A DNA stretch of 64,000 nt, taken from positions 124,001 through 188,000 of the forward strand of contig JALGSV010000007.1 of assembly GCA_029821755.1 (NCBI GenBank), read 5' to 3'. Below, piece by piece: positions 8,301 to 59,285 of this stretch. Source of the DNA: Candidatus Zipacnadum vermilionense. GTDB lineage: Bacteria > Armatimonadota > Zipacnadia > Zipacnadales > Zipacnadaceae. A model generated the notes under the pieces. That model worked only from the letters and a program-made list of their open reading frames with translations. It did not search any database and had not been told where the DNA came from. Each line of letters opens with the position of its first letter. Position 1 is the first letter of the stretch. The translations under genes were made by a program, and so were the position numbers.

Positions 8301-8802
8301 GGCGGTGACCGGCTGGGCGCGGGGGGACTGCAGCGCGATCGGAGACAGCGTGCGGGGGCAAGTGACCTGGGGTGGGGCGGGACTGGGTGAGCAGACGGCG
8401 CAGTACCTGCGGCTGCGATTCTACCTGAGCCGGGCCTCCGCCACTGACACGACGCCGAAGCTGTACGCCTGGGAGACGGCGCCGCTCGTAATCTTGGCGC
8501 CGCAGGTGACGAGCCTGCAGGTGGAAGGGCAGGTAGCGCCGGCGGGAGTGGGCGACACGCAGCCAACGCTGAGCTGGAGCTACAGCGATCCGCAGAGCCT
8601 GGTGCAGACGGCCTGGCAGGTGCAGGTGGCCGCCACGCGGGAGGCGCTGGAGACAGGCCAAGCGGAGATGTGGGATACGGGTGTGCGGATAGGCGCGGAG
8701 ACGAGCGTGGTGTACGCGGGCGAGGCGCTGGGAGACTACGAGACGTACTTCTGGCGGGTGAGGGTGAGGAATGAGAAGGGCGTGTGGTCGGAGGAGTGGT
8801 AG
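5398..8802 (+). CDS. Large virion protein with LamG-like and Ig-like domains
   Basis: The product has 1134 residues. The N-terminal 250 or so (SLVYWVRKPF, GAWELHMMQWDFTQGKLWSYYNDG, LRWHGLAIWDDLLTVPQMQAIYARG) have the pattern of a concanavalin A/LamG jelly roll. The middle is rich in Trp, Tyr and Gly and may be a beta-propeller or tail-spike-like region (SEDGVHFQSLYVQSG). The last 100 residues (PTLSWSYSDP, WQVQVAATREALETG, TYFWRVRVRNEKGVWSEEW) resemble a fibronectin III/Ig domain. It probably binds host-surface glycans. Its place between capsid and connector genes is unusual for a fibre. The ATG at 5398 follows AGAGGGGATAGGTGCC. Exact function is unknown. Confidence 0.75.
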   Translation: MHKQYLWVDRRGAELRWGALGNANIGASGKGSLVYWVRKPFGNNRWYDDFMWGIVCDDSNMVRSRYGRGIGVRRDGVWSAGGQTDINWANSGAWELHMMQWDFTQGKLWSYYNDGVASAPERTGVAAPNGTAQYIQIGYPYSSPTVYKDSDLRWHGLAIWDDLLTVPQMQAIYARGYQDELQAGDGTGNLIFLLRMNEGLTAEVAGGSPLCTPGATSGPRWCLMEEGTRNLGTAVYPLGTPRHDGSEDDRKPLAAVCRVSLDIAQQQAAVSDLNESTYSRLQVQGYTYSHVAGAFFPEPPSPGTYRQLIHVPDEGNTAGYEMGIGPLAYKHYPSTSTGVFDQYGSGRNFSVVADAGNSQTAFKTNLTTPFAASYWIGAWVHLYSGNCRGYRGKVVDFNGTTKVITLDTTLPEIPAAESVGFINFCPRVIGQNASGGMLYDYTVEANLWSRHDSSKHFTMLEWQASPNAGFLRYDRGRTAVIPGSAYNGGGRNVMYGKGYGYTDSPSTNLEIWLRKIELAGPQKYQLIGRQAQRQGATLADNFLVRTRDSHAVGGDSVKLWRKTGTSLVRERPVKQTDYQAVWADLTATGTWRATVDCPPMPLAYDEATQVVTCAITGKDAAGVRRLGYIQGHWDEQTGRIGWTEEPAPVGKANPVIDMSTLRTDRESDAPYQEPQSLCNVLQAPDGTWSLLYNARPDAVDGAQIWCLHGAEDRWSFDFAEQFAGPLVPMFGGVDTREPLNGNGFVPWVNMHAYWTVWENPYATSPQRRYQAYVGGKTIFNSGTGYSVDMRPVIGCQGADLRSLRPLPHGNALTPLPGANMHMFTGTMLGQEDAIGLLFSDGVTSGVGLMTSEDGVHFQSLYVQSGVGEPLLPYSELPGESFCLKPGPAFRLGDLRVYYYGWDEYASLNFATVRWNGETSYQMDAEQTETWLETAILERPESGWGELYVNAAPEQGTVQVELRDPVTETAVTGWARGDCSAIGDSVRGQVTWGGAGLGEQTAQYLRLRFYLSRASATDTTPKLYAWETAPLVILAPQVTSLQVEGQVAPAGVGDTQPTLSWSYSDPQSLVQTAWQVQVAATREALETGQAEMWDTGVRIGAETSVVYAGEALGDYETYFWRVRVRNEKGVWSEEW

Positions 8803-16561: not shown

Positions 16562-18871
16562 ATGGCTAAGAGATCGTATCCAATTGCGCGGGTGAAACTG
16601 CAGGCGCCGGGGGCGCGGTGGGGGGTGAAGTATGACGGATTTGGCCAGCAGGACCTGTCGGCGGAACTGATGCGGGAGGGGCGGGTGAGCGTCAGCCCGG
16701 TGGACTTTGGGGCGCTGGGACTGCCGGCGCCGGGGAAGGCCGGGGTGCAGGTGCCCGCGGCGATGGTGCTGGAGCGCAGCGGGCTGAACTGCGTGGTGGC
16801 GCGGCCGTTCTTGGATACCGCCCAGCAGATCGGCCTGGGGCACTTTACCACCTATGGCGGGGACTGGGTGAGTCTGCCCAAGCATGGTTTCAACGGGGAG
16901 ATGAACCTGTTCCAGTGCCGTGGCGTGGGGAATGAGGTGATCGGGGCGGTCAGCAACTTCACGCTGCCGCTGGACCCGGTCATGGCCATGTCGCTGTACC
17001 GGACCCATCCGCCGGATGACTTCAACTGGGACCAGGTGTCGCCGTATACGGAGATTCACTTTGGCGTCACGGCGAGCGAGGAGTGGGTGCTGTGCCTGCC
17101 GTATGGCGCGCCGCTGTACCTGATGCGGCGGGTGGGCGGGCAGTGGTGGAAGGTGCCGGACACCGAGCGGTCGGTGCATGTGCCCAGCCTGAGCGGATAC
17201 GGCAGCGGGCAGCGCTTGCTCCTGTGGGTGGCGGTGTGGCGAGGGCGGCTGGTGCTGTCGACGGACGGATTCGCGGAGGACGTGTGGGTGTACCGGGCGC
17301 CGGAGGGGCCGATCCGGGTCAAGTCGGGGAAGTGGTCCATCTGGCACAACGCGGGGCAGTACATGTTCTCGTTCCTGCCGATCAAGATGCCGACGGCGCG
17401 GCTGGACAGCGCGGCGGTGGAGACAGGCTACGATACGCGGCTGAGCGTGGGGCAGGTGTTTGTCACCGACCGGCAGCAGCCGGTGCTGAGCGACGGCGGG
17501 ACGGTGTTGGCGGAGGCGGGAGTGGTGGATACGACGGCGGTGCGCGGGGACCTGTCGGCGACGCAGCGGGCCTGGCGGGCGGAGATCGCGCCGTATGTCT
17601 GGAGCCAGACCGAGGTGGGGACCGATCCGGAGACGGAGGAGCCGGTGGACTTTGAGACGTGCGTGTCACCGCAACTGTATGCGGTCAACATGGGGCAGTA
17701 CGCGGAGGTGGAGGAGCGGGAGACACCGACGGAGGAGGACATCTCGGCGGAGGTGCGGCGGGTGGAGGGCAGCCACGCGGACAAGCTGCCGACGGTGCGG
17801 TATGCCCTGGCGCTGGACAACCAACTGGGGCAGCGGCGGGAGCTGCGGGAGTACCAGCGGGTGGCGGTGGAGTTGGGCTGGCGGCTGGACGATGAGAGCG
17901 AGGTATACACGGCGACGGCGGAGGGGTACACGGTGGAGCCGCCGCCGGAGGTGCTGGGCGGGGGGGAGGCGGAGCTGGAAGTGGCGCTGCTCGACGGGCT
18001 GCTGCGGCTGCGGGATGAGAAGGCCGACGGGCGCGTGCCGGTGTTTGACGGCTGGGCGGTGGTGGAGGTCTTCCGCTGGGCGCTGGATCGGTGCGGGATT
18101 CCGCGGGCGAAGCAGAACCTGGAGGACACGGGCGTGCGGTTGTCGCTGGGGGAGCCGGAGTCGCCCCTGTGGCTGCCGGAGCCGGGGCGGGGCTGGCTGG
18201 AGTTCCTGCAGGAGGTAGCGCGGTTTGACTACGGGGCGGGGTTGTTCGTGGATGCCGAGGGGCGCTTCACCAAGGCCTGCGCGCACTGCCGGGAGCTGCG
18301 GACGGCGGCGGACGTGGCCCGGCATGACGGGAGCCTGACGGGGGCGTGCCCGGCCGAGGTGGACTGGCAACTGTACACCCGGGCGAGCGAGGCGCCGGAA
18401 CCGGAGGAGCCTGGAGAGGTGCTGGCGATGGCGCGGCCACGGCTGAGCCTGAGCGAGCGGGAGTATGTGAACTACGTGGCGGTGTGCGGCGTGGGGCGAG
18501 ACGGGCGGCCGATCCGGTCAGTGGTGTGGGACCCGGCCTCGCTGTATGACCCGACCTCGGATCGCTTCGTAGGCTGGCGGAAGATGGAGGTCGCGGCGCT
18601 GCGCGGGTACACCACACAGGCCGAGGCCAACCGTCTGGCGCAGGATATCTACACGGCGCGGAGCGGGCGACCGGAGTACCTGAGCCTGCTGACGCCACTG
18701 GAGCCGGGGATGCGGATTGGGCAGGTGTTGGAGGTGCGGGGGGCGGAGCAGATCGGGGCGGGCGGGCAGGCGTACCGCATCGTGGCGCTGGAGCATCGGG
18801 TGGAGAGGAGCCCGGAGAGGGTGGCGGTGACGCGGGTGAAGGGGAAGTGGGTGGGGAGCCTCACCCCCTGA
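16562..18871 (+). CDS. Phage tail hub/baseplate-like protein
   Basis: The product has 769 residues. The last 250 (YVNYVAVCGVGRDGRPIRSV, ASLYDPTSDRFVGWRKMEV, a helix with TTQAEANRLAQDIY, then TPLEPGMRIGQVLEVRGAE) match the strand-helix-strand layout of tail hub proteins such as gp27/XkdQ-type late control proteins. The middle (DGWAVVEVFRWALDRCGIP, WLEFLQEVARFDYGAGLFVD) is also typical of these proteins. The N-terminal 300 residues look like an added beta-rich domain. The stop TGA lies inside a class A repeat, so the last residues (GSLTP) are repeat-encoded. Confidence 0.65.
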   Translation: MAKRSYPIARVKLQAPGARWGVKYDGFGQQDLSAELMREGRVSVSPVDFGALGLPAPGKAGVQVPAAMVLERSGLNCVVARPFLDTAQQIGLGHFTTYGGDWVSLPKHGFNGEMNLFQCRGVGNEVIGAVSNFTLPLDPVMAMSLYRTHPPDDFNWDQVSPYTEIHFGVTASEEWVLCLPYGAPLYLMRRVGGQWWKVPDTERSVHVPSLSGYGSGQRLLLWVAVWRGRLVLSTDGFAEDVWVYRAPEGPIRVKSGKWSIWHNAGQYMFSFLPIKMPTARLDSAAVETGYDTRLSVGQVFVTDRQQPVLSDGGTVLAEAGVVDTTAVRGDLSATQRAWRAEIAPYVWSQTEVGTDPETEEPVDFETCVSPQLYAVNMGQYAEVEERETPTEEDISAEVRRVEGSHADKLPTVRYALALDNQLGQRRELREYQRVAVELGWRLDDESEVYTATAEGYTVEPPPEVLGGGEAELEVALLDGLLRLRDEKADGRVPVFDGWAVVEVFRWALDRCGIPRAKQNLEDTGVRLSLGEPESPLWLPEPGRGWLEFLQEVARFDYGAGLFVDAEGRFTKACAHCRELRTAADVARHDGSLTGACPAEVDWQLYTRASEAPEPEEPGEVLAMARPRLSLSEREYVNYVAVCGVGRDGRPIRSVVWDPASLYDPTSDRFVGWRKMEVAALRGYTTQAEANRLAQDIYTARSGRPEYLSLLTPLEPGMRIGQVLEVRGAEQIGAGGQAYRIVALEHRVERSPERVAVTRVKGKWVGSLTP

Positions 18872-18954
18872 TCCCCCATCCTTGCAGGAGAGGGGGAATC
18901 AGAACCTCACCCCCCGGCCCCCTCTCCCGCGCCTGCGGCTGGGGAGAGGGGGAG
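18859..18954 (+). repeat. Tandem class A repeats, one supplying a stop codon
   Basis: The first copy (18859-18897) has the short ATCCTTGCAGG loop and contains the TGA of the tail hub gene. The second copy (18905-18954) has the common CGCGCCTGCGGCTG loop. Confidence 0.9.
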
Positions 18955-50893: not shown

Positions 50894-50899
50894 GCCCAG

Positions 50900-50985
50900 C
50901 CTCACCCCCCCTCTCCTGGCAGGAGAGGGGGGATACATAAGAAGAATCCCGGCCCCGGTGGCACTGGCGTCTCGCCGCTGCGGGG
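50900..50985 (+). repeat. Class A repeat and a plus-oriented REP-like hairpin
   Basis: Class A short-loop form (50900-50932) starts 7 nt after a stop. At 50957-50983, GTGG is followed by a CACTGGCGTCTCGCCGCTG hairpin in plus orientation. Confidence 0.75.
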
Positions 50986-51025: not shown

Positions 51026-52570
51026 ATGCAAGACAACTCCCTCATCCGCCAGACGATGGTGAATCTCCATCTCGCCAGCCGCTATGCCGACTACACGCCC
51101 AACTTCCGCGTCGAGGAATTCCAGCCCGGAGCCTGGTGGGTGCTGGACGGCGCGACGCGCGTGGGATCGGTGCAGGCGGAGAGCGGCTTCCTGGAGCTGG
51201 TCAACTTCGATCCACATGCGCCGCGGCCGGTGGAGTTCCCCGAGGTCTACCATGCGCCCACCGCGCCGGGGGATCGGATCCCCCTGGCGAACTGGGTGAA
51301 GTGGAACCAAGAGACGACCAGCGAGCGGAACGAGCTGACCTTCTCGGGTGGCGGGGAGACGCTGACGGTGCAGTTCGAGGAATGGTTCGCTGGGGAGCCT
51401 CACCCCCCTGCCCCCCTCTCCATGCAGGAGAGGGGGAGGCGGATGCATGCGGTCAAGACCTGCACCTTCGCGGTGGACGCGGACCTGGGGTACGTGGTGC
51501 AGGTGGAGAGCCACGTCCAGTCGCCGGTGTCGCATCAGGTGGAGTTCGCCAACTTCCTGCCGGAGCACGTGGTGGACGACCGACTGCAGCGTTGGCCCTT
51601 CGTGCTGTGGCAGCATCCCGACGGGCGGATTCTGCGCTGGAACCAGAACAACGCCGGGGCCGAGGCCTATGGGAACCGCGACCATCACGGCCTGCGGCAG
51701 ATCGACCCGGAGGGCTTTTTCGGTTTCTTCGGGGAGAAGGACCGCTGCCCGGTGGCGGAGTTCCGCGGGGCGAACATGCCGATCGCGGCGGCCACCTGCG
51801 CCAACATGCTCGACGAGCACCTGCATTGGGTGGTGGGGCGCGACTTTGAGCCGCCACAAGACGAGGCGGGACTGTACACCTACGACGTGGCCTTCACGCT
51901 GGCCTCGCTGCCGGGGGAGGTGGGGGCGAAGCTGGCGGAGGGAGCGGAGCTCAATGACCTCATCCTGGAGCGCTATCCGAGCGAGATGGCGGGAAGGTAC
52001 CCCTGGACGCGGGGCGAGACCGGGCCGGTGCGGCCGCTGGACCATGTGGTGTTTCGGCAGGGCACTACCTGCGACTTCACTGAACGTCTCGACCCGTGCG
52101 CCTCGGACCGCAACCAGTGCTTCCTGTGCCCGGATGACGACGAGACGGCGCCGGTCAGTATTCTGTCGGCGGGCGGGCGTCTCACCGCCCCCTGCCTGCG
52201 GGTGCAAACCAGCGGGGCCTCACCCCCTGCCCCCTCTCCTTGCAGGAGAGGGGGTAAGAAGGTTAGCGCTGGTCCGCAGCACGGGACCTCACTGCACGTC
52301 ACCGAGGGAGCGACCTACGAGGTGACCGCGTGGATCAAGACGGACCTGAGCGAGGGCGAGGCGCAGTTGCGGGTATGGGAGTGGTGCTTCACGCCACGAA
52401 ACCTGACGAAGGAGTACCTGTCCGTCCCGGTGAGCGGCAAGTCGGAGTGGACCAAGGTAGCGGTGGAGTTCACCCCGCAGGGGCCCATGACCCACTGCCT
52501 CTGCCCGGAAATCGTGGTAGAGGGCGAGGGGACCGTGTGGGTGGATGAGATGGTGGTACGGCAGGCCTAA
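51026..52570 (+). CDS. Carbohydrate-binding-like protein of unknown activity, with two translated repeats
   Basis: It encodes 514 residues. The first 350 are not recognised (YADYTPNFRVEEFQPGAWWV; HWVVGRDFEPPQDEAGLYTY). The C-terminal 110 (TYEVTAWIKTDLSEGEAQLR, SEWTKVAVEFTPQGPMTH, TVWVDEMVVRQA) resemble a CBM of the CenC/CBM4-9 jelly-roll type. Two class A repeats are read in frame: residues 125-138 (EPHPPAPLSMQERGRR region) and 398-410 (SPPAPSPCRRGGKK region), each in a different reading frame of the repeat. The protein stays intact on both sides. No signal peptide is seen. Confidence 0.65.
   Translation: MQDNSLIRQTMVNLHLASRYADYTPNFRVEEFQPGAWWVLDGATRVGSVQAESGFLELVNFDPHAPRPVEFPEVYHAPTAPGDRIPLANWVKWNQETTSERNELTFSGGGETLTVQFEEWFAGEPHPPAPLSMQERGRRMHAVKTCTFAVDADLGYVVQVESHVQSPVSHQVEFANFLPEHVVDDRLQRWPFVLWQHPDGRILRWNQNNAGAEAYGNRDHHGLRQIDPEGFFGFFGEKDRCPVAEFRGANMPIAAATCANMLDEHLHWVVGRDFEPPQDEAGLYTYDVAFTLASLPGEVGAKLAEGAELNDLILERYPSEMAGRYPWTRGETGPVRPLDHVVFRQGTTCDFTERLDPCASDRNQCFLCPDDDETAPVSILSAGGRLTAPCLRVQTSGASPPAPSPCRRGGKKVSAGPQHGTSLHVTEGATYEVTAWIKTDLSEGEAQLRVWEWCFTPRNLTKEYLSVPVSGKSEWTKVAVEFTPQGPMTHCLCPEIVVEGEGTVWVDEMVVRQA
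51398..51437 (+). repeat. Class A repeat, translated
   Basis: It has the short CCATGCAGG loop and is read in frame inside the 514-residue protein. Confidence 0.9.
52218..52253 (+). repeat. Class A repeat, translated
   Basis: It has the short CCTTGCAGG loop and is read in a different frame from the copy at 51398, just before the CBM-like domain. Confidence 0.9.
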
Positions 52571-58593: not shown

Positions 58594-58672
58594 TCCGCGT
58601 GGGGCGGGCTTTCTAGCCCGCCCTCAGCGGCTGCTACGGGGAGCGCGGGCTAGAAAGCCCGCGCCACGCGGA
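58594..58672 (+). repeat. Inverted REP pair upstream of the RAYT gene
   Basis: TCCGCGTGGGGCGGGC with its AGCCCGCCC partner is followed 19 nt later by CGCGGGCTAGAAAGCCCGCG and CCACGCGGA. Both ends are complementary (TCCGCGTGG/CCACGCGGA), so the whole 79 bp is one imperfect palindrome. It ends at the ribosome site of the RAYT gene. Confidence 0.92.
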
Positions 58673-58685
58673 GGGAAGGGTGCAC

Positions 58686-59183
58686 ATGTCCGAGCATCCC
58701 GGTTTTACCCCCTTGGGGGAGTTTGAGCGACGCAAGCGCCGTTTGCCCCACTGGGAGTCGCCTGACGAGGCCTACTTCATTACCTTCCGCCTCAGGGATC
58801 GCTCCGTAGTCGATCTGACCAGTCCCCCGATTGCGGCCATCATCATCGAGGCCCTGCGGTTCTTCCACGATAGACGGTACACTCTCTGGGACCACACGAT
58901 CATGCCGGATCACGTGCATCTGATCATCAAGCCGCTGGTGAAACGCGGGCTAACAATGCGTCTGGGGCACATTCTGCAGGGCCTCAAAGGCTGGACAGCG
59001 AGACAGATCAACTCGCACCTGGGGCGGCGGGGGCCATTGTGGCAGGACGAAAGGCACGACCACATCGTCCGCAACCAGAAGGACTACGTCGAAAAGGCTG
59101 CATACATCCTGGACAATCCGCGACGTGCGGGCCTGGTCAAAGACTCGACGGAGTGGCCGTGGTGGTCGGTGGGGGTGGAGTGA
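58686..59183 (+). CDS. REP-associated tyrosine transposase (RAYT, Y1/HUH type)
   Basis: The product has 165 residues. The HUH motif is MPDHVHLI (H76, H78) and the Y1 tyrosine region is KAAYILDNP (Y140; Y134 is the alternative). RLRDRSVV, GGPLWQDERHDHIVRN-type sequence (here GPLWQDERHDHI) and WPWWS at the end are usual RAYT features. It would cut and rejoin single-stranded REP DNA at the hairpin base. It is flanked on both sides by inverted REP pairs, the typical REP-RAYT-REP layout. ATG at 58686 follows GGAGGGAAGGG; GTG at 58680 overlaps that site. Confidence 0.92.
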   Translation: MSEHPGFTPLGEFERRKRRLPHWESPDEAYFITFRLRDRSVVDLTSPPIAAIIIEALRFFHDRRYTLWDHTIMPDHVHLIIKPLVKRGLTMRLGHILQGLKGWTARQINSHLGRRGPLWQDERHDHIVRNQKDYVEKAAYILDNPRRAGLVKDSTEWPWWSVGVE

Positions 59184-59210
59184 CGCGTCGTGTCGCCTGA
59201 TGGACCTCAG

Positions 59211-59285
59211 CGTGGGGCGGGCCTTCTAGCCCGCCCTCAGCAGCTGCTGCGGGGAGCGCGGGCTAGAAGGCCCGCGCCACGCGGA
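59211..59285 (+). repeat. Inverted REP pair downstream of the RAYT gene
   Basis: The layout matches the upstream pair: CGTGGGGCGGGCCTTCTAGC, a 20-nt CTCAGCAGCTGCTGCGGGGA middle, then the inverted copy ending CCACGCGGA. The hairpin arms differ from the upstream pair by a single compensated-looking C/G versus T/A change (CCTTCTAG vs CTTTCTAG). Confidence 0.92.

Follow-up and report, generated by a model that had tools for sequence, protein, structure and literature searches.

In-frame copies of a G/C-rich triplex-motif repeat in genes of Candidatus Zipacnadum vermilionense

Introduction

Several families of short palindromic repeats are described within bacterial genes. Rickettsia palindromic elements (RPE) lie in frame in conserved genes and are tolerated as added peptides (Ogata 2000, as cited in PMC2229807 and PMC3733652). 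Intragenic copies are also described for the GTAG/CGTC REPs by Di Nocera et al. (2013; PMC3733652), where some ORFs are hit twice and many of the targets are DNA-repair genes, including dnaE2. A third type is the G/C-rich intrastrand-triplex motif BoxC/PIT/TM, which is 'always located intergenically' in E. coli MG1655 according to Holder et al. (2015; PMC4666352). The same paper reports triplex folding in vitro and instability of the motif, and gives stable triplexes in vivo as lacking support. In the open-licence literature, in which this was the one paper found on the motif, no report of the triplex motif inside translated genes was found. The database used there comprises 5,246 genomes and plasmids, so that in-gene copies from other organisms may stand in it without comment.

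The DNA analyzed here is a stretch of 64,000 nucleotides from Candidatus Zipacnadum vermilionense (Armatimonadota; contig JALGSV010000007.1, positions 124,001 to 188,000), referred to as the window. A previous sequence-only reading had described two repeats ("class A") within one gene of the window, translated in different frames, and had proposed their insertion after speciation with the function of the gene retained.

Results

Two repeat copies in one reading frame of the window

The features of the locus are listed in Table 1. The sole domain signal of the host ORF is a weak C-terminal carbohydrate-binding-like match (CBM_4_9_1/BppA domain 1, PF22637, E 6e-4, below the Pfam cut-off), and AlphaFold2 prediction of the protein with its one orthologue resulted in a mean pLDDT of 38, and the model was discarded.

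Table 1. Coordinates of the host gene, the inserts and the repeat copies in the window.
Feature	Position	Strand	Remarks
Host ORF, 514 aa	51026..52570	+	ORF list; weak C-terminal domain match
Insert 1: GGGGAG + 39-nt core = 45 nt = 15 codons	51392..51436	+	Absent from G001 orthologue
Repeat core, copy 1, 39 nt, codon phase 0	51398..51436	+	Third strand 51398-51408, spacer TG, hairpin arms 51412-51421 / 51427-51436
Insert 2: GG + 37-nt core = 39 nt = 13 codons, within a glycine codon (GG|T)	52216..52254	+	Absent from G001 orthologue
Repeat core, copy 2, 37 nt, codon phase 1	52218..52254	+	Third strand 52218-52227, spacer TG, hairpin arms 52230-52239 / 52245-52254
Third, shorter copy, family D9, intergenic	50899..50932 (G000:C71:174899-174932)	+	Between upstream oxidoreductase gene and ORF 51026-52570

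Both copies are in frame within the 514-residue protein and are read in different phases (0 and 1), as had been proposed. Copy 1 begins at codon position 1 and its codons CCT CAC CCC CCT GCC CCC CTC TCC ATG CAG GAG AGG GGG read as PHPPAPLSMQERG, while copy 2 begins at codon position 2 and its codons (G)CC TCA CCC CCT GCC CCC TCT CCT TGC AGG AGA GGG GG(T) read as ASPPAPSPCRRGG. The codon reading of both copies bears out that neither of the phases used contains a stop codon. The start positions given previously (51398-51437 and 52218-52253) were correct, and both ends had to be shifted by one base, to 51436 and 52254. The predicted tryptic peptides across the two inserts are PHPPAPLSMQER and SPPAPSPCR.

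Structure and identity of the repeat

A consensus was built from those 47 of 73 strict copies (pattern given below) that have short loops: GCCTCACCCCCTGCCCCCTCTCCTTGCAGGAGAGGGGG. Its arms CCCCCTCTCC and GGAGAGGGGG pair with each other, and CCTCACCCCC mirrors the first arm with one change. The opposite strand contains, in this order, a pyrimidine arm, a loop, a purine arm, a short loop and a purine third strand. By inspection, the consensus is free of stop codons in each of the sense frames (three of three) and in two of the three antisense frames. Copy 1 differs from the consensus by one substitution and two extra Cs, whereas copy 2 shows no differences. In the flanks of 73 copies, a GGAG-like stretch lies ahead of many cores and a loose NNCAGAG-type tail behind many intergenic ones, so that the full unit may exceed 37 nt.

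The copies were checked against the ITxF class II rules of Holder et al. (2015; PMC4666352), which comprise a pyrimidine-purine-purine order on one strand, stems of 6-15, at most one mismatch, loops of 1-6 nt and allowed triads. Both window copies follow these rules with 10 of 11 triads each. Among the 150 copies listed, the stem length reaches 9 or more in 93 and is 7-8 in four, while 53 fail under the ITxF loop limits, which the long-loop copies go beyond; none of 150 shuffled copies passed. Furthermore, the E. coli motif CCCTCTCCCTGTGGGAGAGGGCCGGGGTGAGGGC, as published in Table 1 of PMC4666352, matches the reverse complement of the present repeat in a comparison by eye. Judged by sequence and predicted geometry, the repeat is the BoxC/PIT/TM G/C-rich intrastrand-triplex motif.

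In comparison with the E. coli motif as described in PMC4666352, the two share the order on the purine strand (pyrimidine arm, loop, purine arm, loop of 2-3 nt, purine third strand with TGAGG) as well as a high copy number and a patchy distribution over genomes. They differ in stem length (10 here, about 9 in E. coli), in the second loop (TG-type instead of TTA or CCG) and in location, since all E. coli copies are described there as intergenic, whereas 20 of the 146 testable copies listed here are located in genes.

With the RPEs, as described in the cited papers, the repeat shares the occurrence of palindromic repeats in frame within genes as added peptides. The RPEs are, however, elements of 105-146 bp from AT-rich genomes with another sequence, whereas the present core has 37-39 nt plus a few flanking bases and belongs to an unrelated lineage. 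The likeness to the GTAG/CGTC REPs of PMC3733652 consists of short in-frame hairpins, ORFs hit twice and DNA-repair targets including DnaE2. The upstream consensus over 73 copies is GGAG-like and contains no GTAG or CGTC, and the RAYT association of the GTAG REPs has no counterpart at the five Y1_Tnp hits of the genome, none of which has a flanking repeat pair. In its behavior the repeat resembles RPEs and intragenic REPs, yet it belongs to neither family.

Abundance of the repeat

The strict pattern CTCACCCCCN{1,6}CCCTCTCCN{2,30}GGAGAGGGG resulted in 74 matches, corresponding to 73 separate elements, in the 4.39 Mb genome and in none in the reversed control, which places the repeat far above chance. 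In two congeners 13 and 16 strict matches were found, and in three relatives of the same family 0, 1 and 11, with all reversed controls at 0. A covariance model (E 1e-6) detected the repeat in 25 of 41 genomes of the order, with the highest count in the window's genome (120), followed by 53 and 46 in two others; the congeners have 20 and 16. Compared with its congeners, the window's species has thus undergone an expansion of the repeat to 120 strong copies.

Empty sites in the orthologue of the window gene

A search of 61 genomes, with that of the window among them, yielded a full-length orthologue in one further genome, G001 from the same genus (CALFVE010000117.1, uncultured bacterium); the remaining genomes gave a weak match to the window gene or none. 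The G001 protein has 488 aa, and 323 of 486 aligned residues are identical (about 66-67%). The alignment contains three gaps, namely 15 codons at insert 1, 13 codons at insert 2 and an unrelated gap of two codons in the opposite direction. The end points of the inserts are read from this alignment of 66% identity and may move by a few bases.

Exact gaps of a multiple of three in a repeat-free orthologue had been proposed as a check, and in G001 45 and 39 nt are missing. Since the G001 orthologue lacks both copies, with gaps of exactly 15 and 13 codons, the alignment supports that both inserts entered the window gene after the split from the congener. With the gene present in only two of the species among the 61 genomes, the locus has no outgroup, and the direction of the change is deduced from the repeat nature of the insert. 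Neither a pseudogene nor a gapless orthologue was found when both were looked for in the window gene.

Genome-wide placement and reading frame

The census of the repeat is a lower bound of at least 150 non-overlapping copies from sampled parts of the genome, of which 146 could be tested; four were left out because they are too close to the end of a locus. Coding sequence around the copies was called with a hexamer score made for this analysis, which is not a trained gene finder. Of the 146 testable copies listed, 20 are in frame in coding sequence, two are flanked by coding sequence with a broken frame and the others are intergenic or at gene edges. For random 37-mers from the same DNA, 1842 of 3000 (61%) are located in genes (Fisher P 3e-31), and the repeat thus strongly avoids genes.

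Where coding sequence is present on both sides, the frame is kept in 20 of 22 listed copies (P = 3e-8 against one third), which supports the proposed tolerance of the repeat as a protein spacer. Ten of the in-gene copies listed are in sense and ten in antisense orientation, and five of the six frames are used. The sense copies use all three frames (PHP, SPP and LTP readings), while the ten antisense copies use two frames and all avoid the TGA-bearing one.

A degenerate copy is located at positions 18858-18897 of the window, where CCCTGA provides the upstream ORF with its stop codon (TGA 18869-18871), so that the repeat forms the protein end. This copy, one of the two counted as broken, is rather a gene end with a stop codon from the repeat than a frame-breaking insertion. 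The contig C85 of G000 (48.8 kb; L099, L100, L188, L212) carries eight of the 150 listed copies, seven of them in genes, compared to 13 in-gene copies elsewhere. Other palindromic families are also found in frame in the sampled DNA (L086 mutS, L084 dnaE, C21:62374, C85:17343, C63:18608), with 5 of 33 copies of a GTGETPVPP type and 3 of 3 of a GVSP type. For a GGLESPPHA-type palindrome, 5 of 60 copies are in frame in the sampled DNA, of which at least one looks like a chance match.

Other host genes

The 20 in-gene copies listed are distributed over 17 genes, with two copies each in the window gene, the second dnaE and a DEAD-box helicase and one copy in each of 14 genes. Clustering in hot genes was considered as the reason for the double hits; at least three of these occurred in 4 of 20,000 simulations, for which gene number and lengths were assumed. 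Among the single-copy hosts are mutS, a SpoU/TrmH methylase, an FAD oxidase, a polysaccharide deacetylase and a GH95 hydrolase. A further dnaE is located in the window's genome at C69, and for mutS there is one other, weaker match in this genome, which presumably is MutS2.

The polysaccharide deacetylase has exactly 15 extra codons that are absent in all four orthologues, two of them from other families. At site 1 of the second dnaE, 16 codons are absent in all seven orthologues covering the site, and the insert at site 2 is absent in seven of eight, the eighth (G019) having an unrelated stretch. At site 3 (L084 ~8395-8600), about 67 extra residues are present, apparently several repeats fused; in G001 this loop contains a long insert of a different kind, and in seven other orthologues it is free of inserts. 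The insert peptide of MutS is found in none of 19 other orthologue rows, and its size is not exact because the length of this loop varies among them. In the comparison of MutS with solved structures, the insert falls in a stretch skipped by the alignment (query 165-248).

In TrmH the linker is variable among the orthologues and contains in G002 a separate repeat-like insert of opposite orientation, while G001 has a different expansion at the repeat site of GH95. With linkers that are variable or occupied by other repeats, TrmH and GH95 were rejected as clean empty sites. In G001, two loops of DnaE and one of MutS likewise contain inserts of its own. The inserts of G001 and G002 indicate that sister species fill the same loops independently.

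Selection on the host genes

For the window gene and its G001 orthologue, dN was 0.26 and dS 1.01 (NG86), resulting in a ratio of 0.26, with 0.30 before, 0.24 between and 0.23 after the inserts. The ratios of other host genes were similar, with 0.16 and 0.22 for MutS, 0.22 and 0.16 for DnaE, 0.15 and 0.29 for the deacetylase, 0.22 for GH95 and 0.24 for TrmH; the six host genes measured span 0.15-0.29. As estimated from the aligned codons, dN/dS excludes that the window gene is an old pseudogene. The insertion of copy 2 may be of recent date, and the gene may have diverged for the most part before the insertions. A very recent loss of function is compatible with these values, because the ratio averages over the whole divergence and copy 2 equals the consensus. 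The proposed insertion after the split is backed by the exact gaps in G001, while the proposed retention of function is consistent with the data and likely, which we infer from the intact ORF and the substitution pattern.

Spread of the repeat

Five Y1_Tnp (RAYT-like) hits were found in the window's genome, three of them above the cut-off and one of these with internal stops. No flanking pair of the triplex repeat was found around any of the five, the nearest repeats being 233 to 47,829 nt away. Mobilization by a RAYT in cis is therefore not supported; a RAYT may act on the repeat in trans. Two of the RAYTs, one in the window and one on C75, are flanked by inverted repeats of their own, which are of another type. 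In the window, a RAYT-like (Y1_Tnp) ORF (~58866-59048) is located within 58594-59285 between two blocks of 79 nt (58594-58672 and 59207-59285; 94% identical), which belong to another palindromic family (GCGGGCT..AGCCCGC) in a REP-RAYT-like layout.

Discussion

The findings are explained with good confidence by a short mobile or self-copying triplex repeat, which was amplified in the species, entered the window gene twice after the split and persists there as an in-frame spacer. New copies would land anywhere in the genome, insertions that shift the frame or create stops would be purged, and insertions of whole codons in a loop or linker could persist, as five of the six frames of the repeat are open. 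The inserts would code for short, Pro/Gly/Arg-rich and probably flexible spacers, which are predicted from the sequence to be translated and not skipped.

It appears unlikely that the window gene has recently decayed to a pseudogene, or is dispensable, and carries its inserts in frame by luck. In favor of this, chance alone leaves one insertion in three in frame and both of two insertions in about 1 in 9 cases, copy 2 does not differ from the consensus and may be of young age, and the gene is found in only two species among the 61 genomes searched. However, a dN/dS of 0.26 that is similar in all three segments does not fit such a gene, nor does luck account for the frame kept in 20 of the 22 coding-flanked copies listed or for hosts such as mutS and the second dnaE, with ratios of 0.16-0.22.

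An ancestral state of the inserts, with two losses in the congener, is very improbable: the missing outgroup of the window gene leaves room for it, but the insert is a high-copy repeat whose abundance is specific to the window's genome (120 against 16 and 20), and for the deacetylase and dnaE, which do have outgroups, the empty state prevails. Removal of the inserts from the product, by ribosome hopping over the strong G/C hairpin that each of them contains or by RNA or protein splicing, is hardly credible, since skipping needs neither codon multiples nor open frames, yet 20 of 22 listed copies keep the frame and 10 of 10 antisense in-gene copies avoid the TGA frame.

How the amplifying repeat is copied is a matter of speculation. 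Drawing on the instability described in PMC4666352, copying could occur at stalled replication forks. In a doubtful extension of this idea, the folded repeat would stall replication and be copied there by template switching, with no need for a transposase, and would thereby seed genomes with open-frame spacers. The mutation rate of the host could in turn be affected by the repeat via mutS and the extra dnaE, as both act on replication errors and contain repeat-coded spacers.

Under the favored reading of post-split insertion and tolerance as spacers, a widespread triplex-motif repeat, described as intergenic in E. coli in PMC4666352, is able to invade conserved genes and to serve there as a translated spacer in any of the three sense frames. 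The protein-coding palindromes would then reach beyond the Rickettsia-type and GTAG/CGTC repeats and include one more class, from an uncultured lineage that is unrelated. The hosts found here, among them mutS, one dnaE and one helicase gene, overlap with the DNA-repair targets described by Di Nocera et al. (PMC3733652), by which an old suggestion becomes testable. Finally, the empty sites in congeners, together with loops that sister species have filled with different repeats, would constitute a natural experiment on the insertion tolerance of proteins.
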